The position numbers were made by a program, and so were the translations under genes. 35,876 nucleotides of DNA. Origin: Defluviitaleaceae bacterium. GTDB lineage: Bacteria; Bacillota; Clostridia; Lachnospirales; WQUN01. The stretch lies in NCBI GenBank assembly GCA_009785615.1, contig WQVX01000012.1, positions 1-35,876 of the forward strand, written 5' to 3'. Positions 6,721 through 27,888 of the stretch are shown here, in pieces; the stretch's first letter is position 1; each line of letters starts with the position of its first letter. The notes below the pieces were generated by a model. The model made no database searches. It saw only the letters and a program-made list of their open reading frames with translations, and was not told where the DNA came from.

Positions 6721-6735
6721 AAGGAGCATGAAATA

Positions 6736-7437: not shown

Positions 7438-7450
7438 TTGGAGGTTAACC

Positions 7451-8002: not shown

Positions 8003-8018
8003 AGGCAGGTTTAAAGTA

Positions 8019-8062: not shown

Positions 8063-8083
8063 AATTAGGAGGAACCTAATTAT

Positions 8084-8269: not shown

Positions 8270-8297
8270 GCCCCTATTAGAGAAAGGAGGCGCTTTA

Positions 8298-8699: not shown

Positions 8700-8741
8700 A
8701 TATAACTAATGTAATAACAGTATCATAGAGAGGAGCAGACC

Positions 8742-9284: not shown

Positions 9285-9300
9285 AAGGTAACAACTAAAA

Positions 9301-9320
9301 ACCACGCATGGTACCGTGGT
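9301..9320 (+). promoter_or_regulatory. Small hairpin ahead of rplR
   Basis: ACCACG/CGTGGT (9301-9306/9315-9320) forms a 6-bp stem with an 8-nt loop, six bases before the rplR Shine-Dalgarno sequence. There is no T-run. Role unknown. Confidence 0.35.
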
Positions 9321-9339
9321 AAAAAAGGAGTGACAATTT

Positions 9340-9708
9340 ATGATACGGAAATATTGCCGCAAAACAGCACGTAAAAAAAGGCATTATCGGTTGCGCAACA
9401 CTTTATCCGGAACGCAAGAAAGGCCACGTTTGGCAGTATTTAGGTCTAACAAGCATATATATGCTCAAGTGATTGATGACGTAGAAAAGTGTACATTGGC
9501 AACATCTTCTACAATGGAAAAATCATTGAGTGCAAATTTGAAATCTACCTCTAATATAGAGGCTGCTAAAGCAGTAGGTGCTGATCTGGCAAAAAAAGCT
9601 ATGGACAAAGGCATTGATACAGTAGTGTTTGATCGAGGCGGTTTCTTGTTTCATGGCAGAGTAAAGGCACTAGCTGATGCGGCTCGGGAAGCAGGACTTA
9701 AATTCTAA
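9340..9708 (+). CDS. rplR: 50S ribosomal protein L18
   Basis: A 122-residue L18 with [18 protein letters not shown] and the C-terminal [26 protein letters not shown] signature. It binds 5S rRNA together with L5. SD AAAAAGGAGTG before ATG. Confidence 0.97.
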
Positions 9709-9738
9709 GCCGGATGAAGCTTGAAAGGAGAATGGTTT

Positions 9739-10242
9739 TTGAAAAAAATAGACGCAAGCAGTATGGACCTTAAAGACCGTGTCGTAACCATCAAACGGGT
9801 AACTAAAGTGGTTAAAGGCGGACGTACCTTTCGTTTTGCTGCACTGGTAGTGGTAGGTGACGAACAAGGTCATGTAGGTGTAGGCTTGGGTAAGGCAACA
9901 GAAATTCCTGAAGCAATCCGTAAAGGTAAAGAAGATGCTAAAAAGAATATGATCTATGTAGAAAAAACTGAACACGATAGCATTCATCATGATATAATAG
10001 GCCGTTTTGGTGCTGCAAAAGTGCTTTTAAAACCAGCACCGGACGGAACCGGAGTTATTGCAGGTGGTGCAATGCGTGCGGTATTAGAACTTGCTGGTGT
10101 ACGTAATATTGTGGCCAAGTCAATTGGTTCTAATAACAAGCATAATGTGGTAAGTGCCACTATAGAAGGTCTAAGTATGCTTAAAACTCCATCTCAAGTA
10201 GCTAGATTGAGAGGCAAGCCGATTGAGGAGATTGCTCAATAG
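9739..10242 (+). CDS. rpsE: 30S ribosomal protein S5
   Basis: The TTG at 9739 follows AAAGGAG (9724-9730) with 8-nt spacing and gives 167 residues, normal for S5; the TTG at 9721 would lie upstream of the ribosome binding site. Conserved blocks are [39 protein letters not shown] and the [20 protein letters not shown] helix region. S5 contributes to decoding accuracy and mRNA unwinding. Confidence 0.96.
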
Positions 10243-10302
10243 CAATAAAAATGATGGATAAAAATTTAGTTAATTGACTAGCTGGAAAGGAAAAAAATCC
10301 AC

Positions 10303-10482
10303 ATGGCACAACTAAAAGTCACATTGGTTAAATCAACAATCGGTGCGATTCCTAAACATAGAAAGACCGTGGAAGCCTTGGGTTTGAGGAAAATACATTC
10401 CTCTAATATCCAGCAAGATAATCCGGCAATCCGCGGCATGTTACATCAAGTACGACATTTAGTGAAGGTAGAATCAGTCTAG
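10303..10482 (+). CDS. rpmD: 50S ribosomal protein L30
   Basis: A 59-residue bacterial-type L30 read directly from the sequence: [14 protein letters not shown] near the start, then [17 protein letters not shown] and a [18 protein letters not shown] end. Position between S5 and L15 is canonical. AAAGG sits about 13 nt before the ATG, a slightly long spacing. Normal family length. Confidence 0.96.
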
Positions 10483-10504
10483 TTCTGATGATGGGGTAAT
10501 GGGG

Positions 10505-10529
10505 CAAAGTCCCACGGTTTTAGACTTTG
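10505..10529 (+). promoter_or_regulatory. Hairpin between rpmD and rplO
   Basis: CAAAGTC (10505-10511) pairs perfectly with GACTTTG (10523-10529) across an 11-nt loop. It lies in an 86-nt gap, unusually wide for this operon. No T-run follows, so it is not a terminator. Confidence 0.35.
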
Positions 10530-10568
10530 ACCTGATTTTGACCTTAGGTTTAAAAGGAGGTGCAAGCT

Positions 10569-11009
10569 ATGCACTTAGGAGAACTGAAGCCTGCAAAAGG
10601 TGCGACTACCAAGGAGTTCCGAAAAGGGCGTGGTACAGGGTCTGGCAATGGCAAGACATCTGGCAGAGGCCATAAAGGCCAAAAATCACGTAGCGGATCT
10701 GGTGGGAAAATCGGCTTTGAAGGTGGGCAGATGCCTTTATACAGACGGTTGCCAAAACGAGGTTTTACTAACCGTAACACTAAAGAAATTGTAGCCATTA
10801 ATGTGTCGCTACTCAATGTATTTGATGACGGCACCGAAGTTACCATTGAGGCACTGCAAGGCAAGGGCCTTGTATCTAATCCGCGGGACGGTGTAAAACT
10901 ACTGGGTCAGGGCGATTTAACTAAAAAATTGACCGTTCGTGTTAACCAGTACAGCAAAGCCGCCGCTGAAAAGATTGAGGCTGCCGGTGGCAAAGCAGAG
11001 GTGATTTAG
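10569..11009 (+). CDS. rplO: 50S ribosomal protein L15
   Basis: The ATG at 10569 ([22 protein letters not shown]) lies 8 nt after AAAAGGAGG and gives 146 residues, standard for L15. The glycine/arginine-rich N-terminal arm ([19 protein letters not shown]) and [18 protein letters not shown] are diagnostic. A late 50S assembly protein. Its stop abuts secY. Confidence 0.97.
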
Positions 11010-12284
11010 TTGTTTAAGGTACTGGCCAACGCATTTAAGGTCAAAGATATACGCGATAAACTTATTTTTGTCTTTTTAGTATTGTTAATCTATCGGATTG
11101 GTACTACAATACCACTGCCTGGTATTAATTTACACATGCTGGATTTAGCATTGTATCAAGGTATGGGTGGTCAGGGTACATTCTTCGAGCTTATGATGGG
11201 TGGTGGCTATGGCTCAGTTATGGCCATGGGTATCGCACCATACATTACTTCTTCCATTATAATGCAGCTTTTGACAGTTGCGATTCCTAAGTTAGAGCAA
11301 CTTAAAAAAGAAGGCGAAGAAGGTCGTAAGAAAATTAACCAAATTACGCGTAATCTTGCGGTGGTATTAGCTGTTTTGCAGGGTGGCGCAACTGTGTTTT
11401 CTTATGTTAATAACCCTATGGGTATACCGTTGTTTAATCATTCAGGAATTTTGACCTATATTATGGCAACAGTAGCTATGGTTACTGGTACTATATTTAT
11501 TATGTGGCTTGCAGAATTGCTAACAGAACGCGGTATTGGTAATGGTGCATCTTTTATCATTTTTGCTAATATTTTAGCAGGGATGCCTTTAACTATATAT
11601 AGTTTGGGGATATTGCTTCAAGGTGATAATATACTGTTAGGTGCAGGAACTCTCTTGCTGATTCTTTTGGTGTTTGCGGCGATTATTGCTTTTGTTGTTT
11701 TGGTATCTGAAGGCGAACGTCGTATACCTGTACAATATTCTAAAAAAATGGCAGGACGTATGTTTGGCAATAATTCCTATATTCCGATTAAGGTAAATAT
11801 TGCTGGTGTTATGTCTATCATTTTTGCCATATCATTATTGCAATTTCCGGTGCAACTTTCCATGTTCTTTCCCAATAACCAAGTTTTGCAAACAATTGCT
11901 GGATTTTTAGGCTTGGATCACTGGGTTGGAGTTACCGCTTATGTTGTGATGATTTTCCTCTTTACATTTTTTTATACATCATTTGCCGTCAATCCAGTGG
12001 AAATGGCAGAGAATATGAAGAAAAATGGTGGTTTTATTCCGGGTATAAGACCCGGTAAACCAACTAGTGATTATATTCAGCGTATTGTGGATCGCTTATC
12101 TTGGATAGGGGCAGTCTGTTACAGTTTAATTGCAATTGTACCTGTAGGATTCCAATGGGTTACCGGTGTAGACACCGGGTTTGGTGGAACTACTTTGTTG
12201 ATTGCTACAGGCGTGGCGTTAGAATTTATTAAACAATTAGAATCCCAGCTTTTGATGCGACATTATAAGGGCTTCTTGAGCTAG
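11010..12284 (+). CDS. secY: Preprotein translocase subunit SecY
   Basis: The 424-residue channel subunit of SecYEG, with about ten membrane segments. Visible features: IPLPGIN plug/TM1 region, YGSVMAMGIAPYITSSIIMQL (TM2), cytosolic loops SEGERRIPVQYSKKMAGR and NPVEMAENMKKNGGFIPGIRPGKPT, and the C-terminal MRHYKGFLS. The TTG start at 11010 immediately follows the rplO stop, with GAGGTGA about 8 nt upstream. adk, usually the next gene, is absent. Confidence 0.97.
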   Translation: MFKVLANAFKVKDIRDKLIFVFLVLLIYRIGTTIPLPGINLHMLDLALYQGMGGQGTFFELMMGGGYGSVMAMGIAPYITSSIIMQLLTVAIPKLEQLKKEGEEGRKKINQITRNLAVVLAVLQGGATVFSYVNNPMGIPLFNHSGILTYIMATVAMVTGTIFIMWLAELLTERGIGNGASFIIFANILAGMPLTIYSLGILLQGDNILLGAGTLLLILLVFAAIIAFVVLVSEGERRIPVQYSKKMAGRMFGNNSYIPIKVNIAGVMSIIFAISLLQFPVQLSMFFPNNQVLQTIAGFLGLDHWVGVTAYVVMIFLFTFFYTSFAVNPVEMAENMKKNGGFIPGIRPGKPTSDYIQRIVDRLSWIGAVCYSLIAIVPVGFQWVTGVDTGFGGTTLLIATGVALEFIKQLESQLLMRHYKGFLS

Positions 12285-12296
12285 TGGGGGAACATC

Positions 12297-13058
12297 TTGA
12301 GTATCTTTATCAAGAATGACGGACAGATTCAAAAGATGCGGGTTGCAAGTAAAATTGTAGCCGAAACCCACCAATTGATGGAAAAGAATATCCGTCCAGG
12401 TATAGCTACAAAAGAGTTAAATGCTATAGCTGAAGAATATATCCGCAGTCAAGGGGCAGTGCCTTCATTTTTAGGCTATAAAATGACAGGTGAAGGTTTT
12501 CCCGCCGCTATTTGCGTATCAATTAATGAAGAAGTGATACACGGTATTCCTAGTTTAAGGAGATTAAAAAACGGGGATATTGTAAGTATTGACATTGGCG
12601 CATACATTGATAAATTTCATGGCGATGCAGCCCGTACCTATCCGGTAGGAAATGTCTTGCCGGATAGGCAATTGCTGATAGATGTTACAAAGCAAAGTTT
12701 TTTTGAAGCTATGACCTATGTTCGGCATGGACGTCATCTTCATGAACTTTCTGCTGCTGTGGAAAATTATGTGCAACGATACGGATTTACTGTAGTTCGA
12801 GAGTTTTGTGGACATGGTATTGGGCGAAAAATGCATGAGGATCCTCAAATTCCTTTTTACAAACAGCAGAGCAGAGGCCCGCGGTTGCAAAAGGGTATGG
12901 TTCTTGCAATAGAACCTATGGTTACTGCTGGCAAGGCGGATATACGGATTCTGGATGATAACTGGACTGTAGTCACCAAAGACGGAAAATGTGCAGCACA
13001 TTACGAAAATACCATCCTGGTTACTGACGGTGAGCCTGATATTTTAACAATGGTTTAG
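12297..13058 (+). CDS. map: Methionine aminopeptidase, type I
   Basis: A 253-residue type Ia enzyme removing the initiator Met in the cytosol. All five metal ligands are present: D99 (SIDIGAY), D110 (FHGDAART), H173 (CGHGIGRKMHEDP), E206 (AIEPM) and E237 (HYENTILVT), plus the substrate-contact H82. TTG start with GGGGGAA just 4-5 nt upstream, a short spacing; the start matches family length. It follows secY directly where many Firmicutes have adk in between. Confidence 0.95.
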   Translation: MSIFIKNDGQIQKMRVASKIVAETHQLMEKNIRPGIATKELNAIAEEYIRSQGAVPSFLGYKMTGEGFPAAICVSINEEVIHGIPSLRRLKNGDIVSIDIGAYIDKFHGDAARTYPVGNVLPDRQLLIDVTKQSFFEAMTYVRHGRHLHELSAAVENYVQRYGFTVVREFCGHGIGRKMHEDPQIPFYKQQSRGPRLQKGMVLAIEPMVTAGKADIRILDDNWTVVTKDGKCAAHYENTILVTDGEPDILTMV

Positions 13059-13073
13059 ATTTTGGAGTGCGCT

Positions 13074-13376
13074 ATGCAGATAGGACAGGTAGTGTTTTCG
13101 AAATGCGGACGAGATAAAGACAGAGCTTTTGTAGTACTGTCGGTAGAAGGTGAATATGTTTTTTTGGCGGACGGACAACTACGCCCCCTCAATAAGCCTA
13201 AGAAGAAAAAGGTGAAGCATACGCAGCCAACTAATACTGTTTTAGTATTGGAAAAGCAAGGGTTAGCAACCATGGGGGGAATAACGGACGCTGATATTCG
13301 TAAATGGTTGTTACCGTTTAGAGTGAGTATGGATCGAGTAAATGAGGAGGTAAGTAATTGCCTAAAGACGACGTAA
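13074..13376 (+). CDS. KOW-domain RNA-binding protein (L14e-like)
   Basis: The ATG at 13074 with TTGGAG 6 nt upstream gives 100 residues. The N-terminal half is a KOW-type fold ([29 protein letters not shown]), then a lysine-rich segment ([15 protein letters not shown]). This matches the small KOW/L14e-like proteins found between map and infA in many Clostridia, probably ribosome- or RNA-binding, though the exact role is not known. Its 3' end overlaps infA by 19 nt. Confidence 0.85.
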
Positions 13377-13576
13377 TTGAGGTAGAAGGTAAGGTAGTAG
13401 AAAAACTTCCTAATGCCATGTTCCAGGTAGAGTTGGAAAACGGCCACCAGATACTGGCGCACATATCCGGTAAACTGCGGATGAACTTTATTCGTATCAT
13501 CCCCGGCGATAAGGTGCTGATAGAGATGTCGCCCTATGATTTGACTAAGGGTCGGATCATCTGGCGGGATAAGTGA
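13358..13576 (+). CDS. infA: Translation initiation factor IF-1
   Basis: The 72-residue OB-fold factor: [20 protein letters not shown], then [25 protein letters not shown] and [11 protein letters not shown]. Binds the 30S A site during initiation. TTG start with GAGGAGG (13344-13350) inside the upstream gene. Confidence 0.97.
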
Positions 13577-13617
13577 TACTGGCATGTCATCGTGTGCCAA
13601 AAAAAGGAGATAAAGAA

Positions 13618-13731
13618 ATGAAAGTGAGGCCGTCAGTAAAGCCCATATGTGAAAAATGCAAAATCATAAGGCGTAAGGGCGCAGTAAGGGTGATTTGCGA
13701 AAATCCCAAGCATAAACAAAGACAAGGATAA
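13618..13731 (+). CDS. rpmJ: 50S ribosomal protein L36
   Basis: A 37-residue L36 read directly: [19 protein letters not shown], ending NPKHKQRQG. The zinc site C11, C14, C27 and H32 is intact, so this is the zinc-bound form. SD AAAAGGAG precedes the ATG. Canonical place between infA and rpsM. Confidence 0.97.
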
Positions 13732-13749
13732 CAAAAAGGAGGTGTAAGA

Positions 13750-14118
13750 ATGGCACGTATAGCCGGCATCGACTTACCAAGAGAAAAACGTGTAGAAATT
13801 GGATTAACCTATATTTTTGGAATAGGACGCTCTAGTGCTACACGCATTGTAAAGGAAGCTAAAGTAAACCCGGACACAAGGGTACGAGACCTTACTGATG
13901 ACGAAGTAATTCGTATTCGTGAAGTAATTGACAGTTCCCAAATGGTTGAGGGTGATCTAAGGCGGGAAGTTGCTCTTAATATAAAACGCCTTGTAGAAAT
14001 AGGCTGTTATAGAGGTATAAGACATCGCAGAGGATTGCCAGTTAGGGGTCAGCGCACCAAAACCAATGCACGGACCAGGAAGGGCAAAGCCAGGACTGTC
14101 GCTAATAAGAAGAAGTAA
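13750..14118 (+). CDS. rpsM: 30S ribosomal protein S13
   Basis: A 122-residue S13 ([52 protein letters not shown]), standard length. It bridges the 30S head to L5 and P-site tRNA. SD AAAGGAGGTG. First gene of the classical alpha block. Confidence 0.98.
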
Positions 14119-14135
14119 TGTAAAGGAGTAACCAC

Positions 14136-14537
14136 ATGCCAAAAAAAGCGGCAAGAAAGACGACTTCCCGCAGAAGGCGCGATAGGAAGTTTGTGGATCG
14201 TGGCCAAGCTCATATACAGTCGTCATTTAATAATACTATTGTAACCATTACAGATGCAGCGGGTAACGCGCTATCTTGGGCATCAGCAGGGCAAATGGGT
14301 TTTAGAGGTTCTCGTAAATCTACCCCATATGCGGCTCAAATGGCAGCCGATACAGCGGCCAATGCAGCGCGAGAATATGGCTTGAAAATGGTAGAAGTTT
14401 TTGTAAAAGGGCCCGGTAGTGGACGTGAAGCGGCTATTCGCGCTTTGCAAGCTGCCGGACTTGAGGTAACTATGATAAAAGATGTAACGCCGGTGCCTCA
14501 TAATGGTTGCAGACCGCCTAAACGCAGAAGAGTATAA
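14136..14537 (+). CDS. rpsK: 30S ribosomal protein S11
   Basis: A 133-residue S11 with [18 protein letters not shown], the [13 protein letters not shown] block and the C-terminal [18 protein letters not shown]. Forms the platform with S6/S18 near the E site. SD AAAGGAG before ATG. Confidence 0.98.
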
Positions 14538-14574
14538 TGATAAATATAGGATTTACTAACTAGGAGGTTAGTGG

Positions 14575-15201
14575 ATGGCAAGATATACCGGCCCTGTGTG
14601 CAGGCTTTGCCGCAGAGAAGGCGAAAAATTGTTCATAAAAGGGGAAAAGTGTAACAAAAATTGTTGCCCAATTAATAAAAGGGCTTTTGCACCTGGTCAA
14701 CATGGCACATCCCGTAAAAAAATATCGGAATATGGTCAGCAATTGCGTGAAAAACAGAAAGCCAAGCGAATTTACGGTATTTTAGAGACACAGTTTCGTA
14801 ACTATTTTGAAATGGCAGAACGTATGAAAGGCATAACCGGTGAAAATTTGCTGCGTTTGCTGGAAATGCGTTTGGACAATGTTATGTATAGGCTTGGCTA
14901 TGGTCGTTCTCGTACAGAGGCAAGACAAATTGTACGTCATAACTTGATAACAGTAAATGGCAAAAAAGTAAATATACCATCATATCAGCTAAAAGTAGGA
15001 GATGTTGTAGAGGTTAAAGAAAAATCGCGCGCTCTTCAACGTTTTAAAGATGTGTTGGATGTAACTAATTCTCGTATTGTGCCGGATTGGTTAAGTGCTG
15101 AACATGAGCATTTGCGTGGTACAGTTGTATCTGTTCCTGTTCGTGAACAAATTACTGTACCTGTGCGCGAGACTTTAATAGTAGAGTTGTATTCCAAATA
15201 G
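14575..15201 (+). CDS. rpsD: 30S ribosomal protein S4, zinc-containing
   Basis: A 208-residue S4. The N-terminus keeps the zinc cysteines C9, C12, C26 and C30/C31 (the C+ form), and the S4 RNA-binding motif is [31 protein letters not shown] near residues 93-123. S4 nucleates 30S assembly; in E. coli it represses the alpha operon. SD AGGAGG, ATG start, 37 nt after rpsK. Confidence 0.97.
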
Positions 15202-15246
15202 TTGTTGACGCCGTAATGGTAGAAAACCAAGGAGGTTTGCTGTTAA

Positions 15247-16206
15247 GTGTTTGAATTTGAAAAACCTCGTATTGATATAGTGGAAAAATCCAATAATGGT
15301 ACCTACGGACGTTTTGTAGTAGAACCACTACAAAGGGGCTATGGTACAACTTTGGGCAATTCATTAAGGCGAATACTATTGTCCAGTCTGCCAGGTGCGG
15401 CAGTTAGCAATATCAAGGTAGACGGCGTACTACATGAGTTTAGCACAATACCGGGCGTAAAAGAGGATGTTACAGAAATCATTTTAAACCTCAAAAACCT
15501 GGCTATAAAAAACCATGCTGAAAGCCTTGAGCCTAAACTTGCTTATATCGACATGACAGGCGAAGGCGTAGTTTATGCACGAGATATAAAAGTAGATGCG
15601 GATATAGAAATCGCAAATCCTGATATGTTGGTAGCTACGTTAAGTGGCGGTAAAGATAGTAAGCTCTCTATAGAGATAACTATAACCAAGGGTCATGGAT
15701 ATGTAGGTGCTGATAAAAATAAAGGGGCAGATCAGCCTATTGGGCTTATTCCGGTGGATTCTCTATACACCCCGGTTCGTAAGGTTAACTATATTGTGGA
15801 TAACACTCGTGTAGGTAGCGTAACGGACTATGATCGGTTACTTTTAGACGTATGGACTAATGGTACTATTACGCCAGATGATGCTGTAAGCCTTGGTGCT
15901 AAAATTCTTACAGAACATCTTAACTTGTTTGTTAATCTGTCAGAAACTACTAAAAACGCTGAAGTAATGACCGAAAAAGCAGAGGGCAAGAAGGAAAAAG
16001 TTTTGGAAATGAGTATTGAAGAACTGGATCTTTCTGTCCGATCATACAATTGTTTAAAGCGTGCAGGTATCAACTCTGTTGAAGATTTAGCAAACAAAAC
16101 TGAGGAAGACATGATGAAAGTACGGAACCTGGGACGCAAATCTTTGGAAGAGGTTCTTAATAAAATGACGGATCTGGGGCTTGCCTTACAGTCGGTTGAG
16201 GAATAA
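15247..16206 (+). CDS. rpoA: RNA polymerase subunit alpha
   Basis: A 319-residue alpha subunit. The N-terminal dimerisation domain contains [21 protein letters not shown] and [19 protein letters not shown]; the C-terminal DNA-binding domain contains [20 protein letters not shown] and [18 protein letters not shown] start at 15247, GGAGG at 15231-15235 (11-nt spacing). Assembles the core polymerase and contacts UP elements and activators. Confidence 0.98.
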
Positions 16207-16233
16207 AAGTTTAGTTAAGGAAGGAGGCTGACT

Positions 16234-16824
16234 ATGTCTGGATATAGAAAGCTTGGATGCAGTACATCAAGCCAGAGAAAGGCTATGTTGCGAAGCTTAG
16301 CTACTAATCTTTTGTATCATGGTAAAATTACTACTACAGAAGCTAGAGCTAAAGAAGTGCGGCGTATTGCTGAAAAATTGATTACCTTAGCAGTAAAAGA
16401 ACATGAAAATTTTACAGAAGTTACGGTTAAGGCTAAAGTGCCCAAAAAAGAGACTGTTGTATCCCCTAAAAAAGACATACCTCGCGAGAGGATAAAGTCA
16501 GCTACACATGTTAAAAGGGTAAAATCAGTCGTTGATGGCAAACGTGTAACAGAATACGAAGAAGTAGAAAAGACTATCAGGAAGGATAATCCTTCCAGGT
16601 TGGTTGCCCGTCGTAAAATGTTAAGCGTTTTTTATCCTGTAACAGAAGTATCTGGTGATAACCGTAAAAAGCGAAGCCAGTCCAAAAAAATAGACATGCC
16701 AACAAAAATGTTTGATGAGATAGCACCTAAATATACTAACCGTCAAGGTGGATATACTCGTATGGTTAAGCTAGGCTCTCGTAAAGGTGACTCTGCGGAA
16801 ATGGTTTTGCTTGAGTTAGTTTAA
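16234..16824 (+). CDS. rplQ: 50S ribosomal protein L17 with large insertion
   Basis: The N-terminal 55 residues (MSGYRKLGCSTSSQRKAML; ITTTEARAKEVRRIAEKLI) and the C-terminal NRQGGYTRMVKLGSRKGDSAEMVLLELV are typical L17. The protein is 196 residues against about 112-130 usually. The excess is a charged block around residues 56-120 rich in Lys, Glu and Val, before SRLVARRKMLS, and a second basic insert near 138-155. The reading frame is intact and SD AAGGAGG is strong. Last gene of the operon. Confidence 0.93.
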   Translation: MSGYRKLGCSTSSQRKAMLRSLATNLLYHGKITTTEARAKEVRRIAEKLITLAVKEHENFTEVTVKAKVPKKETVVSPKKDIPRERIKSATHVKRVKSVVDGKRVTEYEEVEKTIRKDNPSRLVARRKMLSVFYPVTEVSGDNRKKRSQSKKIDMPTKMFDEIAPKYTNRQGGYTRMVKLGSRKGDSAEMVLLELV

Positions 16825-16858
16825 GGTGTTATTTTAATTTTAATACAGTCATTCTCAG

Positions 16859-16902
16859 CCCCTCTTTACAATATATTTAATATATTGTAAAGAGGGGTTT
16901 TT
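16859..16902 (+). terminator. Terminator of the ribosomal operon
   Basis: A perfect 17-bp stem (16859-16875 with 16881-16897), 5-nt loop, then five T. It ends the transcription unit 34 nt after rplQ; ecf-transporter genes, truA, rplM and rpsI, which often follow, are not here. Confidence 0.95.
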
Positions 16903-16970
16903 CGCGAAGCAGTGAGTCGTTGGGCAAGCTTACTTGTGCATTCGACAAACGCCGCGATGAGGATGCTATT
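16903..16970 (+). promoter_or_regulatory. mntP leader, possible structured element
   Basis: This 68-nt stretch can fold: GTCG (16917-16920) with CGAC (16943-16946), enclosing GCAAG/CTTG-GC arms around CTTA. Many mntP genes are controlled by the yybP-ykoY manganese riboswitch, but its conserved sequence blocks are not recognisable here. No clear promoter is seen between the terminator and mntP. Confidence 0.35.
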
Positions 16971-17573
16971 ATGAATATAATCGAACTTTTTTTGCTTGGG
17001 TTAGGGCTTTCAATGGATGCTTTTGCTGTATCTGTTTGTATTGGCCTGTCTTTAATAAAGATTAGCATGAAGAAGCTTGTAACAGTAGGGTTATATTTTG
17101 GAACATTTCAAGCAGCAATGCCCTTTATAGGATATATGGCTGCAATACAATTTGCCGGATATATAGCTACATATGATCAATGGCTTGTTTTTGCTATTCT
17201 TTTTTTTCTTGGTGGTAAAATGATAGTAGAAGGAATAAAAGAAAAGCAGTGTCAAAACAAAGACAATGCAGATTCTTTGTGCGTTGATAAAAAATGTTCT
17301 ATTGGAAGGCAAGAAATTTCATTAAGTTTAGCATATATGACGCCACTTGCTATTGCTACAAGTATTGATGCAATGGCAGCAGGCATATCAATTGCGTTTT
17401 TACAAACTAATATTTTTAATGCAATAATTTTAATTGGAATTGTCACATTTGTAATGTCAATGATTGGTATAAAAGTTGGTCATGTTTTTGGAACTAAATT
17501 TAAATCTAAGGCAAGCATAATAGGAGGCATTATTTTACTGTTAATAGCTTTTAGAGGCTGTATTCAACTTTAA
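16971..17573 (+). CDS. mntP: Manganese efflux pump MntP
   Basis: A 200-residue six-helix membrane protein exporting Mn2+. The duplicated family motif is present: LGLSMDAFAVS with D16 and ATSIDAMAAGIS with D133. The loop between the two halves (about 90-113) carries three cysteines (C94, C104, C109), slightly longer than in the roughly 185-residue family average. ATG at 16971 with GAGGA 9 nt upstream; an in-frame TTG at 16920 has no ribosome binding site. It follows the ribosomal terminator closely and probably has its own control region. Confidence 0.93.
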   Translation: MNIIELFLLGLGLSMDAFAVSVCIGLSLIKISMKKLVTVGLYFGTFQAAMPFIGYMAAIQFAGYIATYDQWLVFAILFFLGGKMIVEGIKEKQCQNKDNADSLCVDKKCSIGRQEISLSLAYMTPLAIATSIDAMAAGISIAFLQTNIFNAIILIGIVTFVMSMIGIKVGHVFGTKFKSKASIIGGIILLLIAFRGCIQL

Positions 17574-17602
17574 CAAAATATTTTACTACCAGCCATCCGG
17601 CG

Positions 17603-20053: not shown

Positions 20054-21202
20054 ATGTATAGATTTAATATCAACTTAGAAGAACTTGAAAAAGGTATGGT
20101 AATAGCAGAGCCGGTTTTTGCAATTACAAAGACCGGAACAAATATGCTGCTTATTAAAGAAGATACTCTTGTAACAGATAAAATTATATCACTTTTACAG
20201 CGTCAGCAAGTAAAACAAATTGTAGTAAATACCAGAAAAAAATTGAGAGAAAATTTGCCGCTTGTGCAATCTAAGATAGAAGAAAAGCCTAAAGTAAAAC
20301 CAATATTTAGTGATACTTTACGAAAAGAAGCTGTTGAAAATATACGAAGTTTATTTTCAATTGTAAATGATCCGGATCATGGCAATAATAACATGACAAC
20401 AGCCTACCAAGCTATTGAGGGTCTTGACCGTATACTTAACCAGTTAATAGCATCAATATCTGCGGAACCCGGAGGGATTGTACATATACATGATCTTAAA
20501 AGTTTTGATGAATATACCTATCACCATTCCTTGAGTGTTGCAGTGCTTGCTATCGCTACCGGCCAAGTTATGGGGATGGATCTTTTAGAAATTATACGAT
20601 TAAGCCGTTGTGCTGTTCTTCATGATGTTGGAAAATTGGCAATACCTATAGAAATTTTAAATAAACGCAGTTCTCTAACTGACGAAGAATTTAAAATTAT
20701 GAAGAGCCACTCTGTACAAAGCTCTTTAAATCTCAAAAATAAAGCGTTTGGAGATACAGAATTATGGACCGGGGTTATGTATCATCACGAAAAAGTTAAT
20801 GGAAAAGGCTATCCCAAAGGGCTAACAGGAAATGAAATACCTCTGTTTAGCCGAATTATTTCTGTCGCTGACGTGTATGATGCAATTACTTCTTATCGGC
20901 CATATCGCAAGCCCATGACCCCATCTGATGCCCGTGAGTTAATTATGGGTGAGGTTGGGAATTCTTTTGAATACGATATTGTTAAAGCATTTACTAAAAA
21001 ATTGGTTTTATATCCGCTTAACACGATTGTTGAACTTTCTAACCATACAATGGGCGTTGTAATCGAAAATGAAAACCAAATGCGCCCTGTAGTAAAGCTG
21101 GAAAACGCCAATGAAGTGATAGATTTATCCAACCATAAAAATTTGAACATAGTTATTACAAAAGTAATTAATCCTAATGAAAAATCCGGCAGACGAGGAT
21201 AA
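20054..21202 (+). CDS. HD-GYP cyclic-di-GMP phosphodiesterase
   Basis: A 382-residue protein. The N-terminal region (1-65) resembles the small domain often preceding HD-GYP (LEKGMVIAEPVFAITKTG). The catalytic domain has HH 157-158, HD 190-191 (HDVGKLAIP), HHE 244-246, GYP 252-254 and DVYDAITS 273-280, all metal and substrate residues expected for cleaving c-di-GMP. No membrane segment is visible, so it is probably cytosolic. Own promoter and terminator, so monocistronic. It neighbours a surface-glycan cluster, which c-di-GMP often controls (inference). Confidence 0.92.
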   Translation: MYRFNINLEELEKGMVIAEPVFAITKTGTNMLLIKEDTLVTDKIISLLQRQQVKQIVVNTRKKLRENLPLVQSKIEEKPKVKPIFSDTLRKEAVENIRSLFSIVNDPDHGNNNMTTAYQAIEGLDRILNQLIASISAEPGGIVHIHDLKSFDEYTYHHSLSVAVLAIATGQVMGMDLLEIIRLSRCAVLHDVGKLAIPIEILNKRSSLTDEEFKIMKSHSVQSSLNLKNKAFGDTELWTGVMYHHEKVNGKGYPKGLTGNEIPLFSRIISVADVYDAITSYRPYRKPMTPSDARELIMGEVGNSFEYDIVKAFTKKLVLYPLNTIVELSNHTMGVVIENENQMRPVVKLENANEVIDLSNHKNLNIVITKVINPNEKSGRRG

Positions 21203-21244
21203 TGGTAAAAATCAATGTTTATAGGTAATATTTTACTAAATTTT

Positions 21245-21272
21245 GCGCAAACTATATGTATGCGCTTTTTTT
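21245..21272 (+). terminator. Terminator after the HD-GYP gene
   Basis: GCGCA/TGCGC (21245-21249/21261-21265) extended by AC/GT, then seven T (21266-21272). Separates the HD-GYP gene from the glycan cluster. Confidence 0.8.
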
Positions 21273-21327
21273 AATGCCAAATTAAAGAAATGAGGTAAAG
21301 GATATTTATAACATAAAAATACCATTT

Positions 21328-22329
21328 TTGCTAAGCATAATAATACCGGTTTACAACATAGCAAAATTATTACCTAACCGTTTAGAACATCTATTACAAC
21401 ATAATCTTGAAAGTGTCCAAATTATTGTTGTGGACGACGGCAGTACAGATTGTTCTTATGAAATTTGTCAGCAATATTTATCTAACTATGCCGCGGCTGT
21501 TTTAATCACTCAAAAAAATCAAGGACTTTCTGCTGCTCGTAATCGCGGCATTGCAGAAGCTAAAGGAGAGTATGTCCTTTTTCTTGATAGTGATGATATT
21601 TTGATGCACAAAGGCTTTCGGGAGCTAATGGACTATATTTGTAACAATAAACCGGATATTTTAATGGGAAAATATGTTGTTATTCAAAAAAAAGGAAGAG
21701 ATATTTGGCCTCAATATTCTTTTCCGTCAGTATCTTCTGAAGCGGAAGCAAAAAAAATGATCTATACTCACATTACAGATAGCATCTGGAATGCTTGGCG
21801 GTATGTGTGCAGAAGAGAATTTTTAATAGAAAATAACCTGTTCTTTCAGCATGGAATTTTATGTGAAGATATGGAGTGGTCTCCCAGAGTTTTGGAAGTA
21901 GCCGCCAACATTGCATTTTTAGAAGAGCCATTTTACGGATACTATCACAATCGACCCGGAAGCATTACAAGTACAGCTCTTGCAAAGCGAATTGCAGATG
22001 TAAATACCATAGTCGCAAATAGTGTCATACGTTATTCATCTAAAGATTATGGCAAGGCTTTATCGTATCGGCTGGTACGAGAATCATTCTACTGCATAAG
22101 CAGATATTTTTTGTGCAAAAAAAGTGACCGCAAAGCTTTGCGTCCAATAATTGAAAAAGCTATAGACTGTTATCATCACTCAGCTTCTGGGGAAGTAGCA
22201 TTATTTCTTCAAACTCAGCCAATTATTCCTTTATATATTTGGTCTGTAATTTTGTGGATAGCAAGAAAAACAAGAAAGATATTTAATCCTATTTTAGGCC
22301 CAATTTCAATAAAAAATGTGGGTACATGA
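21328..22329 (+). CDS. GT2-family glycosyltransferase
   Basis: A GT-A fold transferase of 333 residues from TTG 21328: SIIIPVYN, VVDDGSTD 35-41 (nucleotide-sugar binding), GLSAARNRGI, DSDD 87-90 (metal site) and the CEDMEW acceptor motif. A hydrophobic stretch (IIPLYIWSVILWIARK) near the C-terminus may touch the membrane. The start is uncertain: TTG has no ribosome binding site at normal distance, while GAGG at 21292-21295 lies 8 nt before an in-frame ATT at 21304 (adding eight residues). The next gene overlaps by ATGA. Probably transfers a sugar in surface glycan synthesis; the sugar cannot be told. Confidence 0.88.
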   Translation: MLSIIIPVYNIAKLLPNRLEHLLQHNLESVQIIVVDDGSTDCSYEICQQYLSNYAAAVLITQKNQGLSAARNRGIAEAKGEYVLFLDSDDILMHKGFRELMDYICNNKPDILMGKYVVIQKKGRDIWPQYSFPSVSSEAEAKKMIYTHITDSIWNAWRYVCRREFLIENNLFFQHGILCEDMEWSPRVLEVAANIAFLEEPFYGYYHNRPGSITSTALAKRIADVNTIVANSVIRYSSKDYGKALSYRLVRESFYCISRYFLCKKSDRKALRPIIEKAIDCYHHSASGEVALFLQTQPIIPLYIWSVILWIARKTRKIFNPILGPISIKNVGT

Positions 22330-23423
22330 AAATGATAGATAAATATACAAATTTGCTAGAGTCGTACCCGCTTTATTTATCAGTAGCAGAAGAGCTAATA
22401 GCTGCCAATCCGAAATGTTTAGATCATAATCAATTGGAACCGAACCAAATAATTATTGCCACCACTGCTTATATGACCTCTCCGGTATTGCTAAATTATG
22501 TATTTTGGGTACTGGAACAGGCAGAAGCTCAAGGTATAGGCACATTATATTTTTTATCAAGAGATGGTTATGTATTAAAAATAATTGGGGAAAAATTGGC
22601 ATCCGTATGGTTTCCATCAATAGAATGCAAGTACTTTTACTGTAGCCGATATGCTTTACAAACAACTTCAAAAAGCCTATTAGCAGAATATATGTTACAA
22701 GAAGGTCTGCACAAACCTGATATTGCCATCGTGGATACCGGCTGGATGGGTTCTATGCAAAAAAATATCCAAGCAATTAGAAGTCAGTTTTTTGGAAATG
22801 ACCATATCATTGGGTACTATTTTGGTATGCTGTCTAAAGGATTTCGTGATAGTGGGACATATAAAACATATCTTTTTTCTCCCGGAGAAAAATGGATACA
22901 CAACTTTGGTTTTAATGCCAATGTGTTTGAATGCTTATGTAGTGCTGATCATGGCATGACCATTGACTATAAGAAAACAAAAACTAAAATAGAACCCCGG
23001 TTTAGCGAAAATATCCCAAATGGCCCTACCACGTTGCAATTACAAATTATTAAAGACTACATGGAGCATTTTATGGCTCGTAATCCGCAAAAAAGAGATG
23101 TACCCATTGAACGCTCTATAATCAGAAAATTGCTATGGCGGTTTATCCATAGCCCAACAAAAGCAGAAGCTGCCACATATGGTTCCATTCTCTTTGCTCA
23201 TGACTCAAAAGAAAATCAACTTTATCCTTTGGCAGAAAAAACAGATGTCTCATTAATAAAAAATAATCTTTTTTTCTTTCGACTTATAAACAAGATTTGG
23301 TTAAAACGCAAAGTACGGCCGCTTTACTGGATAGAAGGTACAGCAGTGTTATCAGGCTATTCTTTGGGGATGGATATGTATTTACTGTATGCAATCAGGC
23401 TTATTTTACAATATTATTTTTAG
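22326..23423 (+). CDS. Stand-alone COG5610-type C-terminal domain protein
   Basis: A 365-residue protein without a glycosyltransferase or HAD domain. Its motifs FLSRDGY 76-82, YCSR 105-108 and IVDTGWMGSMQ 135-145 match, in the same order, YLARDGF, HVSR and TFDLGYSGRIQ in the C-terminal third of the 1034-residue protein downstream. That domain occurs after HAD domains in predicted polysaccharide-related proteins (COG5610 type, by memory); its reaction is unknown. ATGA overlap with the upstream glycosyltransferase shows translational coupling. Conserved charged residues (R79, D80, R108, D137) suggest an enzyme. No signal peptide is visible. Confidence 0.7.
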   Translation: MKMIDKYTNLLESYPLYLSVAEELIAANPKCLDHNQLEPNQIIIATTAYMTSPVLLNYVFWVLEQAEAQGIGTLYFLSRDGYVLKIIGEKLASVWFPSIECKYFYCSRYALQTTSKSLLAEYMLQEGLHKPDIAIVDTGWMGSMQKNIQAIRSQFFGNDHIIGYYFGMLSKGFRDSGTYKTYLFSPGEKWIHNFGFNANVFECLCSADHGMTIDYKKTKTKIEPRFSENIPNGPTTLQLQIIKDYMEHFMARNPQKRDVPIERSIIRKLLWRFIHSPTKAEAATYGSILFAHDSKENQLYPLAEKTDVSLIKNNLFFFRLINKIWLKRKVRPLYWIEGTAVLSGYSLGMDMYLLYAIRLILQYYF

Positions 23424-23448
23424 AGTTGATAGAATTGAGTGTATAAAA

Positions 23449-24783
23449 ATGAATACTTGGACATATCACAATCCTGATTTTAAAAGTGATTTAGTAAATT
23501 TGGAAATGCTTAAATATTCTCCATGGGCCGGGCATCGTAACTTTGCCTATGATTATGTTGCCAATATGTGTCCCGCTACTATAGTTGAACTTGGCACTCA
23601 TTACGGCACATCATTTTTTGCATTTTTACAGGCAGTAGAGGATGGAAAGTCACCAAAAACACAAATATATGGTATAGATGCTTGGGGATATATTGACGGA
23701 AATGAATGGACAAAAAAAGAATATGAGATAGATATATATAATATTTTCCTCAAAACTTTGGATATATATAAACATAAAGCTAAGGCTCATACTATAAGAA
23801 AAATTTTTGATGATGCTTTGGCAGATGTTGAAGATAACAGTGTAGATTTGCTTCATATAGACGGAAACCATACCTACGATGCAGTAAAGCATGATTACGA
23901 AACTTGGATACCTAAAGTTAAAGAAAGTGGTGTAATCCTCTTTCATGATGTTAGCGAAACATCTTATTTACATGAAAATTCTTCTCCGGAATTTTGGAAA
24001 GAGATAAAAAGTAAGCATCAATATACTCTTGAATTTGATCATTGCTATGGTTTGGGAATTTTTTGCAAAAACTCTTCTGTATATCATCGGCTTAAACAAA
24101 TAAATTTAATGCACTATCAACATATTAATAATCTCTTGGATGTACAAAATCGTGATGATCTTCGCAAAAATTATTTTAAGCTTAAAGACAATGATATATA
24201 TATAAATTTCTTAAAGAGACAGCAACAAAATATAGAAGATGAAATAAAGAAATATGAAGATACTATATCAAAAAAAGATAGTTATATACATCAATTGCAA
24301 AACGAACATGACACCATAGAACATAGCTACGCAGAAGCCACAAGTACCATTGCAAACAAAGACGCCTACATTAATCAACTTTGTATACAACAGAACAACA
24401 TGCAAAAAGCCTATGAAAAAACTATCGTTGATAAAGATTCTTACATTGATCAACTTTGTATACAACAGAACAACATGCAAAAAGCCTATGAAAAAACTAT
24501 CGTCGATAAAGATGCTTACATTGATACACTCCATGTTTTACAAGATGACATTAAAACAGCATATGAAAAAACCATCGTTGATAAAGACACCTATATTGAA
24601 AACATAAAAAATGAGCACCAAGAAGCCATTGCTGAACTACAACAACAACTAAAAATAGCTAAACAGAATACTTTACGCAGCACTTGCCAAGATGAAGGCC
24701 AGCGTAATCATATTAAAAATTTGGAAGAAAAAATCCAATCTTTAGCAAACAGAAAAAGATCATTGGTTAGTTGGAGGAGTTAA
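23449..24783 (+). CDS. Class I methyltransferase with repeated coiled-coil tail
   Basis: 444 residues from ATG 23449 (weak ribosome binding site TTGAGTG). Residues about 25-215 form a Rossmann methyltransferase of the Methyltransf_24 kind: ELGTHYG 47-53 (SAM site), YGIDAWG with D77, LHIDGNHTYD 135-144, LFHDVSE. Residues about 255-435 are coiled coil containing 25-residue repeats (KDSYIDQLCIQQ..YEKTIVD). Such methyltransferase plus coiled-coil proteins occur in glycan clusters, where the coil can set polymer length or assembly; that role is inference here. The glycosyltransferase-HAD gene starts on the next base. Confidence 0.82.
   Translation: MNTWTYHNPDFKSDLVNLEMLKYSPWAGHRNFAYDYVANMCPATIVELGTHYGTSFFAFLQAVEDGKSPKTQIYGIDAWGYIDGNEWTKKEYEIDIYNIFLKTLDIYKHKAKAHTIRKIFDDALADVEDNSVDLLHIDGNHTYDAVKHDYETWIPKVKESGVILFHDVSETSYLHENSSPEFWKEIKSKHQYTLEFDHCYGLGIFCKNSSVYHRLKQINLMHYQHINNLLDVQNRDDLRKNYFKLKDNDIYINFLKRQQQNIEDEIKKYEDTISKKDSYIHQLQNEHDTIEHSYAEATSTIANKDAYINQLCIQQNNMQKAYEKTIVDKDSYIDQLCIQQNNMQKAYEKTIVDKDAYIDTLHVLQDDIKTAYEKTIVDKDTYIENIKNEHQEAIAELQQQLKIAKQNTLRSTCQDEGQRNHIKNLEEKIQSLANRKRSLVSWRS
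24349..24599 (+). repeat. 75-bp coding tandem repeat
   Basis: About three in-frame 75-nt units encode 25-residue coiled-coil repeats (residues about 303-382). The first two are almost identical over 24376-24503 (53 of the nucleotides identical in a row from CAACTTTG), indicating recent duplication; the third has diverged. Confidence 0.85.
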
Positions 24784-27700
24784 ATGCTCGCATTATCTGT
24801 AATAGTCCCGGTTTACAATACAGAAACATATATAAATCGCTGCATTAACAGCATCCTTAATCAAACCCTTACAAATTTAGAAATCATTGTAGTTAACGAT
24901 GGCTCCGCGGGCAATATAGAAGAAATAATTAAAGGCTATCAAGAAATGGATAGCAGAGTTAAGTATGTGGCTCATGAAAGTAACAGAGGACTGTTTCAAG
25001 CTCGTTTAACAGGGGCACAGTTAGCAGCCGGAAAATATATAGCTTTTGCAGATAGTGACGATTTTGTAACAATAGACTACTATCGTATGCTAACAACCAA
25101 AATGGAGCGGGAAAATGCTGATATCGTAGTGGGTAAAACTGTTCGTATAGACAACCATGGCCAAGCATTTATCCAACCATTTCACGATCAACAGTTTTAT
25201 TTTGATTTTAATAAAAACTTTATTGAAGCTCCTGAGATTAAAGATCTATTTTTTGGTCAACATGGAATGTGCTATGGCTGGCATACCATTTGGAATAAAG
25301 TTTATAGCAAAACTTTATGGGATCAGTGCGAGCCTTATTATCACTATATCCAACAGCATATAGTGATGACCGAAGATATAGCTTTTTCGTTACCTCTTTT
25401 GTACTTTGCCAATCGTTTATCCTCTGTTCAAAACGACGGCTATTTTTATTGTGATAATAATAATGCATCAACTAATACTGCTTGCGTTTCAATAGAACGT
25501 TATCAAAAAAATATAGAAGATATGAAAGCAGTATTCGACTTTGGGCAGTGGTTTTTGAAAAAAGTAAACGCAGATATCAAGTACCAATCTGATTTTTTAG
25601 AATTCCGAAAACATTATGCACGCCTTTGGAGAAACTTTGCAGAAGCAAAGTACTCAGGTATAAAAATGCAGCAAGCTAAAGAATCTTTAGAGAAATTTGT
25701 GCCGGATTATCACGACTTACCTACCCCGGACGATCATTTTTATGGGCAACTAACCATACCATGGAGTGGAGGTTTAGAACACTTAAAGGAGCAGATAAAA
25801 GGCTCTTCATGTAAATATATCAGCTTTGATATATTTGATACACTGGTTAAACGCCCGCTATATAATCCGGACGACATATTTTATTTGATGCAAAAATTTT
25901 TTCAACGTTTAAGCAACACAAATATGAACTTTCATAAAATGCGTCGTGCCTCAGAAGATGCTGCTCGGTTCAGATTATACGTAGAAGGTTCCAATTTTCA
26001 GGATGTCAGCTTGGAAGAAATATATGATGCTATGTCAAAGGAATTTGGCATAAGCTCGCAAGTGACAATAGCTCTTATGGAAGAAGAAATCCGTTTAGAG
26101 TTGGAGCTTTCAGCCCCAAGAGAAGCAGCTAAAGAGCTGTTTGAAGTAGCACAATCCTGCGGTAAAGAAATTATTGTCATCTCAGATATGTATTTGAAGC
26201 GAGATAGCATCGAAGCCATTTTACAAAAATGTGGATATAGCGACTATCGCCATTTGTTTTTATCATCAGAAGTAAAGTTGACAAAATATCATAATGGCGA
26301 ATTATTTAATCATGTATTGGTGGCATTAAACGTTAAAGGAAACGATATACTTCATATTGGTGATACTTGGATTTCAGATATAGCTAACGCAAAGAGCAGA
26401 GGTTTTGAGACATTATTTTTCCCAAAAGCTAAAGAAGTGTTTGAGGGAAAGATCGAATCGTGTTCTGATTACAATGGATTTTATGATATGCAGCTTGCTT
26501 GCGGAAACACTGTAGATTTTGAAAGAGCTATGGGAAATTTGGGCATACGCACCATGATTGGCATAATATGCAATGAATATTTTGATAATCCCTATAAGAC
26601 ATTTTGTAGCGGGTCAAAATATAATGTTGACCCATATTATATAGGCTTGTTCCCGGTTGGAATTCATATGGTGTCATTAGTCAAATGGATAACAGAGCAA
26701 AGCTTTAAACAAGGCTACGATACCATAGCTTATTTGGCTCGCGATGGCTTTTTGCCTATGAAAGTTCATCAAGCGGCAGCACAATATATGGATAACCTCC
26801 CTAAAACAGAGTATATTCATGTTTCGCGCAAATCAGTTATGCCTTTGATGCTTTCAGAGAATACAGACTTCTATGATATGCCCATAGAGATAGGTAATCA
26901 CAGTTGTAATTCTTTGATGTCGACCTTGACATTTTGCTCAAAGGATATACCTGAAAATGTGCCAATAAATGAATGGCAGAAGATGTTCATTGAAAAGAAG
27001 TTTTTGCCGGATAAACGCTTTACAAACTTTCAAGATTACAAGCGGTTTATAGATATATTTCATGAGCATTTCTATGATAAAGAAAAGCACAAAAATGCAA
27101 TAAAGCAGGCAAAAGTCTATTTGAAATCTATAGACCATAGCAACTTGGCAACCTTTGATTTGGGCTATAGTGGCCGAATACAAGCGGCTATAAATACGGC
27201 CTGCCAAAATCGAATTTCCGCGCTGTTTGTACATAGTGACGAACAGCGATCTTTCACTTTAAAGCACAAGCATAAATTTGCAATTCATTCTTTCTATGAT
27301 TACACTCCGCATATGTCCGGGTTGCCACGAGAGCATATTTTTTCAACGTCACAAGGGTCATGTATAGGATATGATCAATCAGGAGAACCAATTTTTGAGG
27401 ATAATAATAAAAATCATATTGATGCCCGGGTGATAAAGCAGATCCATCAAGGTGCTTTGGCCTTTTGTAATCAATTTTGGCTTCTGTATGCAAAATTTGA
27501 AGATGAAATGGACTTCAAACCTCAAGAGGCTTCTTTAGCTTTTGAAGGATTTATCAGTAACTTCAACGAGCTGGATTTAAAGATATTTTCTGCTTCTTAT
27601 TTTGAAGATACAGTTTATGGCGGCATGGAGAACATTAATATAGGTGAGCATATAAAACGTCAAATTATGGATATACCCATGTTAGGAAAAGTTGCATCCT

Positions 27701-27888
27701 CTACATTATCACATCGTGAAGTTTTGGAGGCTTATATGGATCACAAAGGAAGATATACAAAAGCTTTGGTATATTTATTGATAGACAGGGGTGTGTTTGT
27801 TGATAAATTGAAGGTTCATTTGGAAAAAAAACCTTGGATGTATCGTACTTGCAGACGAGTTTATTGGAGAGCCAGGGGGTGGCGATAA
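24784..27888 (+). CDS. GT2 glycosyltransferase-HAD-COG5610 fusion
   Basis: 1034 residues in three parts. (1) GT-A transferase 1-250: SVIVPVYN, VVNDGS 36-41, FADSDDF 88-94, MTEDIAF 195-201. (2) HAD-like domain about 340-570: SFDIFDTL 347-354 with nucleophile D349, VISDMYL 465-471, HIGDTWISD 524-532. The usual +2 acid/base Asp is Phe351. (3) C-terminal domain about 580-1034 shared with the protein at 22326: AYLARDGF 649-656, HVSR 679-682, TFDLGYSGRIQ 790-800. ATG follows the previous stop directly with AGGAG upstream. Likely makes or modifies a phosphorylated surface glycan; the chemistry is not established. Confidence 0.85.
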   Translation: MLALSVIVPVYNTETYINRCINSILNQTLTNLEIIVVNDGSAGNIEEIIKGYQEMDSRVKYVAHESNRGLFQARLTGAQLAAGKYIAFADSDDFVTIDYYRMLTTKMERENADIVVGKTVRIDNHGQAFIQPFHDQQFYFDFNKNFIEAPEIKDLFFGQHGMCYGWHTIWNKVYSKTLWDQCEPYYHYIQQHIVMTEDIAFSLPLLYFANRLSSVQNDGYFYCDNNNASTNTACVSIERYQKNIEDMKAVFDFGQWFLKKVNADIKYQSDFLEFRKHYARLWRNFAEAKYSGIKMQQAKESLEKFVPDYHDLPTPDDHFYGQLTIPWSGGLEHLKEQIKGSSCKYISFDIFDTLVKRPLYNPDDIFYLMQKFFQRLSNTNMNFHKMRRASEDAARFRLYVEGSNFQDVSLEEIYDAMSKEFGISSQVTIALMEEEIRLELELSAPREAAKELFEVAQSCGKEIIVISDMYLKRDSIEAILQKCGYSDYRHLFLSSEVKLTKYHNGELFNHVLVALNVKGNDILHIGDTWISDIANAKSRGFETLFFPKAKEVFEGKIESCSDYNGFYDMQLACGNTVDFERAMGNLGIRTMIGIICNEYFDNPYKTFCSGSKYNVDPYYIGLFPVGIHMVSLVKWITEQSFKQGYDTIAYLARDGFLPMKVHQAAAQYMDNLPKTEYIHVSRKSVMPLMLSENTDFYDMPIEIGNHSCNSLMSTLTFCSKDIPENVPINEWQKMFIEKKFLPDKRFTNFQDYKRFIDIFHEHFYDKEKHKNAIKQAKVYLKSIDHSNLATFDLGYSGRIQAAINTACQNRISALFVHSDEQRSFTLKHKHKFAIHSFYDYTPHMSGLPREHIFSTSQGSCIGYDQSGEPIFEDNNKNHIDARVIKQIHQGALAFCNQFWLLYAKFEDEMDFKPQEASLAFEGFISNFNELDLKIFSASYFEDTVYGGMENINIGEHIKRQIMDIPMLGKVASSTLSHREVLEAYMDHKGRYTKALVYLLIDRGVFVDKLKVHLEKKPWMYRTCRRVYWRARGWR

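Follow-up and report, generated by a model that had tools for sequence, protein, structure and literature searches.

A candidate ribofuranose polysaccharide gene set with two glycan phosphoribosyltransferases in a Defluviitaleaceae bacterium

Ribosyl polymerases and the locus under study

Glycan phosphoribosyltransferases (gPRTs) form a recently described enzyme module that moves ribose from phosphoribosyl pyrophosphate (PRPP) to surface sugar chains. For Cj1432 of Campylobacter jejuni three consecutive steps are proven (PMC12096443): ribose-5-phosphate is transferred from PRPP by the gPRT domain, freed of its phosphate by a HAD domain and then extended with the next sugar by an N-terminal transferase. 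Solved relatives are Bcs3 of Haemophilus influenzae type b (Hib), with its CriT ribosyltransferase and CrpP phosphatase domains, and the polysaccharide ribofuranosyl transferase of Thermobacillus composti (PDB 7shg), in which a phosphoribose phosphatase (PRP) is joined to a gPRT. The subject of this paper is a set of four genes, at about 21.3-27.9 kb of a 35,876-nucleotide stretch of Defluviitaleaceae bacterium DNA (contig WQVX01000012.1, the whole of which is called the window), that encodes two such gPRTs.

The four co-directional open reading frames (ORFs), all on the plus strand, encode a family 2 glycosyltransferase (GT2), a stand-alone gPRT, a methyltransferase with a coiled coil and a GT2-PRP-gPRT fusion. 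Together they are read here as making, and probably capping, a ribofuranose-containing cell-surface polysaccharide exported by an ATP-binding cassette (ABC) transporter encoded elsewhere, a reading to which a probability of about 0.65 is assigned. It is built on domain homology, conserved catalytic residues, fold, conserved gene order and the presence of an exporter; from these we infer what each enzyme does, how the repeat is built, that the methyltransferase terminates the chain and that the exporter belongs to this set. A first-pass annotation of the window had described a compact glycan gene set with overlapping or abutting genes, and all four frames were found as it had placed them.

Identity of the repeated domain

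The first-pass annotation had also noticed that the stand-alone protein and the C-terminal domain of the fusion share the motifs R-D-G, S-R and D-x-G-x-x-G, and had proposed that one unknown activity is encoded twice. The motifs do stand in the same order in both proteins. Plain BLASTP aligns the two at an E-value of 9e-5, and hhalign, given a profile of six stand-alone proteins and one of three fused domains, returns a probability of 98.1% and E 8.4e-14 over 279 columns. The predicted models of both match the same two solved proteins in Foldseek, so that neither profile nor structure speaks for unrelated domains.

Searches of both proteins against Pfam and NCBIfam returned no model covering the gPRT domain, and it is in respect of these libraries only that the domain deserves to be called uncharacterised, since solved enzymes match it. 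Among solved structures, the stand-alone protein matches Bcs3 by phmmer at E 3e-7, and the fusion does so at E 4e-15 over residues 342-707, a stretch that takes in the HAD domain and the beginning of CriT. When six stand-alone proteins are combined into a profile (A1), Bcs3 is reached at 6e-25 and 7shg at 9e-22. The clear match to the PDB came from single sequences and a nine-row model, unlike a three-row alignment (A2), which retrieved chance matches only.

The predicted structures point the same way. For the stand-alone model (pLDDT 74.6), the Foldseek matches at E <=0.001 are Bcs3 and 7shg only; VIA-align gives Z 26.0 to the Bcs3 structure 8a0m (323 residues aligned, root mean square deviation 4.2) and Z 22.5 to 7shg (256 aligned, 3.1), followed in the next row by a nucleotide phosphoribosyltransferase at Z 7.4. 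The model of the HAD and C-terminal domains of the fusion (pLDDT 83.9) matches Bcs3 with Z 24.5 over 565 residues and 7shg with Z 23.0. Both gPRT copies are thus predicted to adopt a PRTase-like fold with helical bundles.

In Bcs3 the PRPP site of CriT is formed by loop 1 (S678-R679-D680), loop 2 (S707-R708) and loop 3 (E818) (PMC10299916), and the three recurring motifs correspond to these loops, which identifies the repeated domain as a gPRT. In the stand-alone protein, loop 1 is R79-D80-G81 (22560..22568), where D80 equals D680 of Bcs3; R and D are found in 74 of 75 stand-alone gPRTs, the remaining one having a gap. Loop 2 is S107-R108 (22644..22649), the counterpart of S707-R708 in Bcs3 (PMC10299916), and loop 3 is D137-T-G-W-M-G-S143 (22734..22754), whose D, first G, W and second G are kept in 75/75. 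E202 (22929..22931), likewise invariant in all 75 sequences, is the counterpart of E874, the proposed general base. The acidic pair that binds ribose in Bcs3, D680/E818, is accordingly represented by D80 and D137, with Asp for Glu, and in the fusion D654, D792 and E850 stand at the sites of D680, E818 and E874. Judged by sequence and predicted models, the repeated domain is almost certainly a PRPP-dependent gPRT like CriT and 7shg, and the HAD domain a PRP. The idea of one activity encoded twice therefore survives, but not the idea that the activity is unknown.

The fusion as a probable polymerase

The fusion (24784..27888, 1034 aa) abuts the methyltransferase gene. Its GT2 domain spans residues 5-159 (24796..25260; PF00535, E 3.5e-38) and its gPRT domain (26479..27663) carries R653-D654-G, S681-R682, D792-x-G-Y-S-G and E850, with the helical insert HB-2 present. 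Between them, the HAD domain (25786..26478) shows the conserved motifs S-F-D349-I-F-D, S-D-M-Y and H-I-G-D, in which D349 corresponds to the CrpP nucleophile D386. The first Asp of the DxD motif is kept and the second is missing, as in CrpP, which retains the first only (PMC10299916). By sequence and predicted model, the domain thus combines a homologous HAD fold and a nucleophilic Asp with the loss of the second DxD Asp that typifies a PRP of the CrpP kind.

The order of domains, namely transferase, phosphatase, gPRT and helical tail, equals that of Cj1432 (PMC12096443), and for this reason the fusion is considered, by analogy, to be quite probably a ribofuranosyl polymerase. A search of the genome found these two gPRTs alone, and the PRP of the fusion alone. 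Proteins of about 1120-1150 aa with a PRP-gPRT arrangement occur in the same family as the window, at three survey loci (L018 4500-7937, L019 4768-8139 and L062 8233-11682), and those of L018 and L019 have a weak C-terminal match to Capsule_synth (PF05159).

The stand-alone gPRT

The stand-alone gPRT (22326..23423, 365 aa), assigned by homology and fold, is a 'mini' form that has neither a phosphatase domain nor HB-2. Its frame overlaps by 4 bp that of the upstream GT2 glycosyltransferase (21328..22329, 333 aa; PF00535, E 8e-34), for which the sequence at 21181-21400 also offers a possible earlier start, an ATT at 21304 preceded by GAGG, which resembles a ribosome-binding site. HB-2 lies between loops 2 and 3, where the stand-alone protein has 29 residues against about 111, making it some 80 residues short. 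In Bcs3, HB-2 of CriT touches the phosphatase as well as the first transferase of the other protomer (PMC10299916); it is a feature of Bcs3 that is not demonstrated as required, and is not treated here as defining a gPRT.

Four other proteins also have no HB-2, three of them in one close group and one further away, and all mini forms retain the catalytic residues and have lost the equivalent of R712. On a maximum-likelihood tree this distribution requires three changes or more, and 0/200 bootstrap trees allow a single one; the branches are long, and exact placements are therefore unsure. A one-off deletion or an assembly fault was considered and rejected, given the four other loci and the number of changes that the tree needs.

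Since the PRP and gPRT parts of Bcs3 work as separate proteins in trans, the phosphatase of the fusion could serve the stand-alone gPRT, and the loss of HB-2 may relax phosphatase docking. On balance the stand-alone protein is taken to be active, with dephosphorylation in trans, at somewhat better than even odds. Weighing against this, it has lost HB-2, has Q112 in place of the R712-equivalent arginine and sits on a long branch, so that its activity may be weakened. The same losses would suit a decaying or regulatory, non-catalytic copy that scaffolds the fusion while the fusion alone adds ribose, as would the contacts that HB-2 makes in Bcs3 with the phosphatase and first transferase, and the possible decayed scrap of another gPRT near a pyruvyl-transferase gene on contig C22. 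Such a copy is nevertheless unlikely: R79, D80, S107, R108, D137, G139, W140, G142 and E202 are all retained, the losses of the insert, three at the least, all left the catalytic residues in place, and the frame remains open and overlaps the upstream gene.

The coiled-coil methyltransferase

In systems that make capped, length-controlled polysaccharides, the chain end is modified by a terminator that carries a coiled-coil ruler, and a carbohydrate-binding module (CBM) of the exporter ATPase Wzt recognises that end (PMC11231755; PMC11127046). The candidate terminator and ruler of the window is the methyltransferase (23449..24783; PF13578, E 1.5e-24). Its ORF opens at 23389, the ATG at 23449 is the preferred start and homologues begin at the residue encoded there. 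The C-terminal tail of about 207 aa (24139..24783) has a hydrophobic period of 3.54 residues, which was reached by 1/500 shuffles, and contains a tandem repeat (24358..24587) of a 75-bp, or 25-codon, unit with 93% matches over the first 2.2 copies and 84% over 3.1 copies.

Eight further genomes of the same order yielded homologues, as did one more locus (L090, from the cultured Clostridium sp. KNHs205), and tails among the homologues measure 73 to 207 residues. In 9/9 of these other genomes the next gene downstream encodes a GT2-PRP-gPRT protein; at one of the nine loci it is broken at a contig end after the HAD domain. The preceding gene encodes a Wzt with the glycan-end-binding domain Wzt_C (PF14524) in seven genomes, all seven that were tested. 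This neighbourhood suggests capping and chain-length control of the WbdD type, and the two elements expected of a WbdD-type terminator, a methyltransferase (PF13578) and an extended coiled coil (the predicted 207-residue tail), are present in the window protein. By analogy, then, the methyltransferase is a fairly likely chain terminator.

Several results pull in the other direction. Wzt_C is found neither in the window's genome nor in that of a relative from the same family (G101), both of which have a short Wzt, so that coupling of capping to export through Wzt_C is not seen in this organism; no WbdD chain appears among the solved-structure matches of the methyltransferase up to E 1; and no kinase is seen, so that the cap would be methyl only. 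It is therefore proposed, with moderate confidence, that the protein works like a WbdD-type terminator, and membership of the WbdD family is withheld on account of the same three points. The want of a kinase and of Wzt_C, and the breadth of the PF13578 family, would also fit an enzyme that methylates sugars within the chain, with no capping and with the coiled coil as scaffold only. This is judged doubtful, as seven other genomes place the gene between a Wzt_C-bearing Wzt and a GT2-PRP-gPRT gene, a hallmark of capped systems (PMC11231755).

Export and the wider survey

In G101, the nearest relative, the four genes recur in unchanged order, the fusion being 57% identical; behind them come a pyruvyl-transferase gene, a gene for 634 aa and then the exporter genes for Wzm and Wzt. 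In the window's genome a Wzm 73% identical to that of G101, together with a Wzt, is encoded on contig C23, away from other glycan genes, and this Wzm is the sole Wzm match in the genome. Candidate priming enzymes are present elsewhere in the form of two PF00953 matches, one of which is likely MraY, and two PF02397 matches. The gene content of an ABC transporter-dependent pathway, Wzm/Wzt with candidates for an undecaprenyl-phosphate priming transferase, is thus found in the genome, and no match to the KpsC/KpsS-type capsule route (PF05159) was found in it or in G101. The C23 exporter would then serve this set, against which it counts that the exporter is on another contig and that the pairing depends on similarity to G101. 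The first-pass annotation had anticipated a distant export system, and rightly reported a four-gene stretch with no flippase or priming gene; its claim that a polymerase is also missing is not supported, given the Cj1432/Bcs3-like layout of the fusion.

The neighbourhood was surveyed in 80 loci drawn from a genome collection with one query, of which 76 have a stand-alone gPRT by mechanical ORF calls; the counts are for these reasons lower bounds and do not form an unbiased sample. A GT2 gene is directly upstream of the stand-alone gPRT in 59/76 loci, and Wzm follows within two ORFs in 51/76. Where at least 9 kb of downstream sequence is available, 34/49 loci include a PRP and 15/49 have none nearby. 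This last figure, with the lack of a phosphatase in the stand-alone protein itself, could indicate that its ribose-5-phosphate stays unremoved and yields a phosphorylated, charged branch or cap. That outcome is improbable, as a PRP-type match occurs somewhere in 10/10 searched genomes with a stand-alone gPRT (weakly in G053), nine of the ten having been chosen because their locus had no called PRP, and as PRP acts in trans in Bcs3. That the enzymes merely decorate an existing acceptor, whether protein or wall glycan, and make no polymer, as the lack of initiation and export genes in the four-gene stretch had suggested in the first-pass annotation, is a weaker reading than polymer synthesis and a quite unlikely one, because in G101 this set and Wzm/Wzt form a single run of genes, stand-alone gPRTs usually have ABC exporter genes as neighbours and the fusion has the layout of a polymerase.

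Some of the surveyed exporters are themselves unusual. At two loci (L070 8319-9872, L110 8466-9818) a PRP-type HAD domain forms the N-terminus of Wzt, a fusion that would couple ribose dephosphorylation to export. At five Lachnospiraceae loci with a stand-alone gPRT (L082 8786-10615, L085 12158-13993, L112 11301-12905, L119 12193-14121 and L123 12145-14139), Wzt has a secreted-looking N-terminal part, made up, as judged by eye, of a signal peptide, a cohesin- or cadherin-like beta domain and one transmembrane helix, with the cadherin-like PF12733 in L082; in these proteins part of the exporter ATPase seems to lie outside.

Within the window's genome, contig C22 (10705-13100, L025) holds three pieces that may be left over from an earlier form of the locus: a pyruvyl-transferase relative with 66% identity to the neighbour in G101, a TylF-like methyltransferase and a scrap of 28 residues that resembles gPRT at 50% identity. 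In the window itself, the ORF sizes and order at positions 1-17600, upstream of the glycan genes, look like those of a ribosomal-protein operon, including a SecY-sized gene, together with further housekeeping genes. Viral contigs gave no relative of the stand-alone gPRT, and plasmids no DNA match. An unannotated 4.9-kb sequence from human faeces labelled 'Bacteriophage sp.' (MT838735.1, 963-2081) encodes a gPRT relative of 32% identity, and is probably a mislabelled bacterial contig.

Proposed pathway and its meaning

In the pathway favoured here, the gPRT domain of the fusion would transfer ribose-5-phosphate from PRPP to the growing chain, its PRP domain would strip the 5-phosphate and its GT2 domain would place the next sugar onto the ribose, so that a single protein could be enough to polymerise a repeat with ribose in it. 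More residues would come from the upstream GT2 and the stand-alone gPRT, in the simplest case a second ribofuranose or an adapter, and the phosphate on the product of the stand-alone gPRT would be removed in trans by the PRP of the fusion. The methyltransferase may then methylate the growing end and halt growth, with the coiled coil serving to measure chain length, as that of WbdD does, and the chain would leave through the Wzm/Wzt transporter encoded on the other contig.

A broader and more tentative proposal, put forward as somewhat less than an even chance, is that this represents a two-gPRT system of Clostridia, in which a phosphatase-free and repeatedly miniaturised gPRT uses the phosphatase of a separate polymerase, and a methyl-capping coiled-coil ruler sets the length of an ABC-exported, ribofuranose-containing envelope polymer. 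If true, it would bring chain-length control by polymerase and terminator to a lineage without lipopolysaccharide. For a domain that Pfam and NCBIfam do not see, an activity, a donor (PRPP) and the catalytic residues can now be predicted. This makes many unannotated glycan genes in Clostridia from gut and termite gut readable, at no fewer than 76 loci with a stand-alone gPRT, most of them beside GT2 and ABC-exporter genes. What recurs is a pair of one phosphatase-free and one phosphatase-linked gPRT, with a second module of coiled-coil methyltransferase and GT2-PRP-gPRT; the pair and module together predict ribofuranose in a surface polymer, a methylated end and a chain length set by the length of the coiled coil. 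The repeated loss of HB-2 also provides a natural experiment on the role of this insert.

Comparison with known systems

The closest layout is that of Cj1432, a protein of 1031 aa from the HS:2 capsule of C. jejuni, which has the same order of glycosyltransferase, HAD domain, PRPP-dependent ribosyltransferase and helical tail (PMC12096443); the two are likened by layout alone and not by sequence alignment. The first domain of Cj1432 is a GT4, whereas the fusion begins with a GT2, and the parts of the account consulted mention no partner stand-alone gPRT or coiled-coil methyltransferase (PMC12096443).

Hib Bcs3 (CroT-CrpP-CriT; PDB 8a0c/8a0m) has homologous phosphatase and ribosyltransferase domains in the same order with matching catalytic residues (PMC10299916). 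It differs in starting with a ribitol-phosphate transferase and in having an SH3b domain, while the second gPRT of the window has no HB-2; moreover, the Hib polymer has no chain-terminating residue (PMC11231755). The T. composti protein matches in fold and profile, but consists of two domains without a GT2.

As regards termination and export, the O7 and O4 O antigens of Klebsiella pneumoniae share ribofuranose, an ABC exporter and a coiled-coil terminator (PMC11231755), with a methyltransferase-kinase as the terminator in O7 and a CBM on the Wzt of O4 (PMC11231755). Klebsiella is however Gram-negative, and the O7 terminator includes a kinase and is fused to glycosyltransferase modules (PMC11231755). 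The candidate terminator of the window, unlike that of O7, is a separate protein without a kinase beside the GT2-PRP-gPRT fusion, in an organism whose Wzt has no Wzt_C. In this separation it resembles the WbdD/WbdA system of Escherichia coli O9a, where methyltransferase and coiled-coil ruler are also encoded apart from the polymerase. The O9a exporter bears a CBM, which is seen here in relatives, and WbdD also has a kinase, whereas the window methyltransferase has no sequence match to the solved WbdD chain. The four-gene set is a variant of the ABC-exported ribofuranose polysaccharide systems known from Klebsiella, Haemophilus and Campylobacter.

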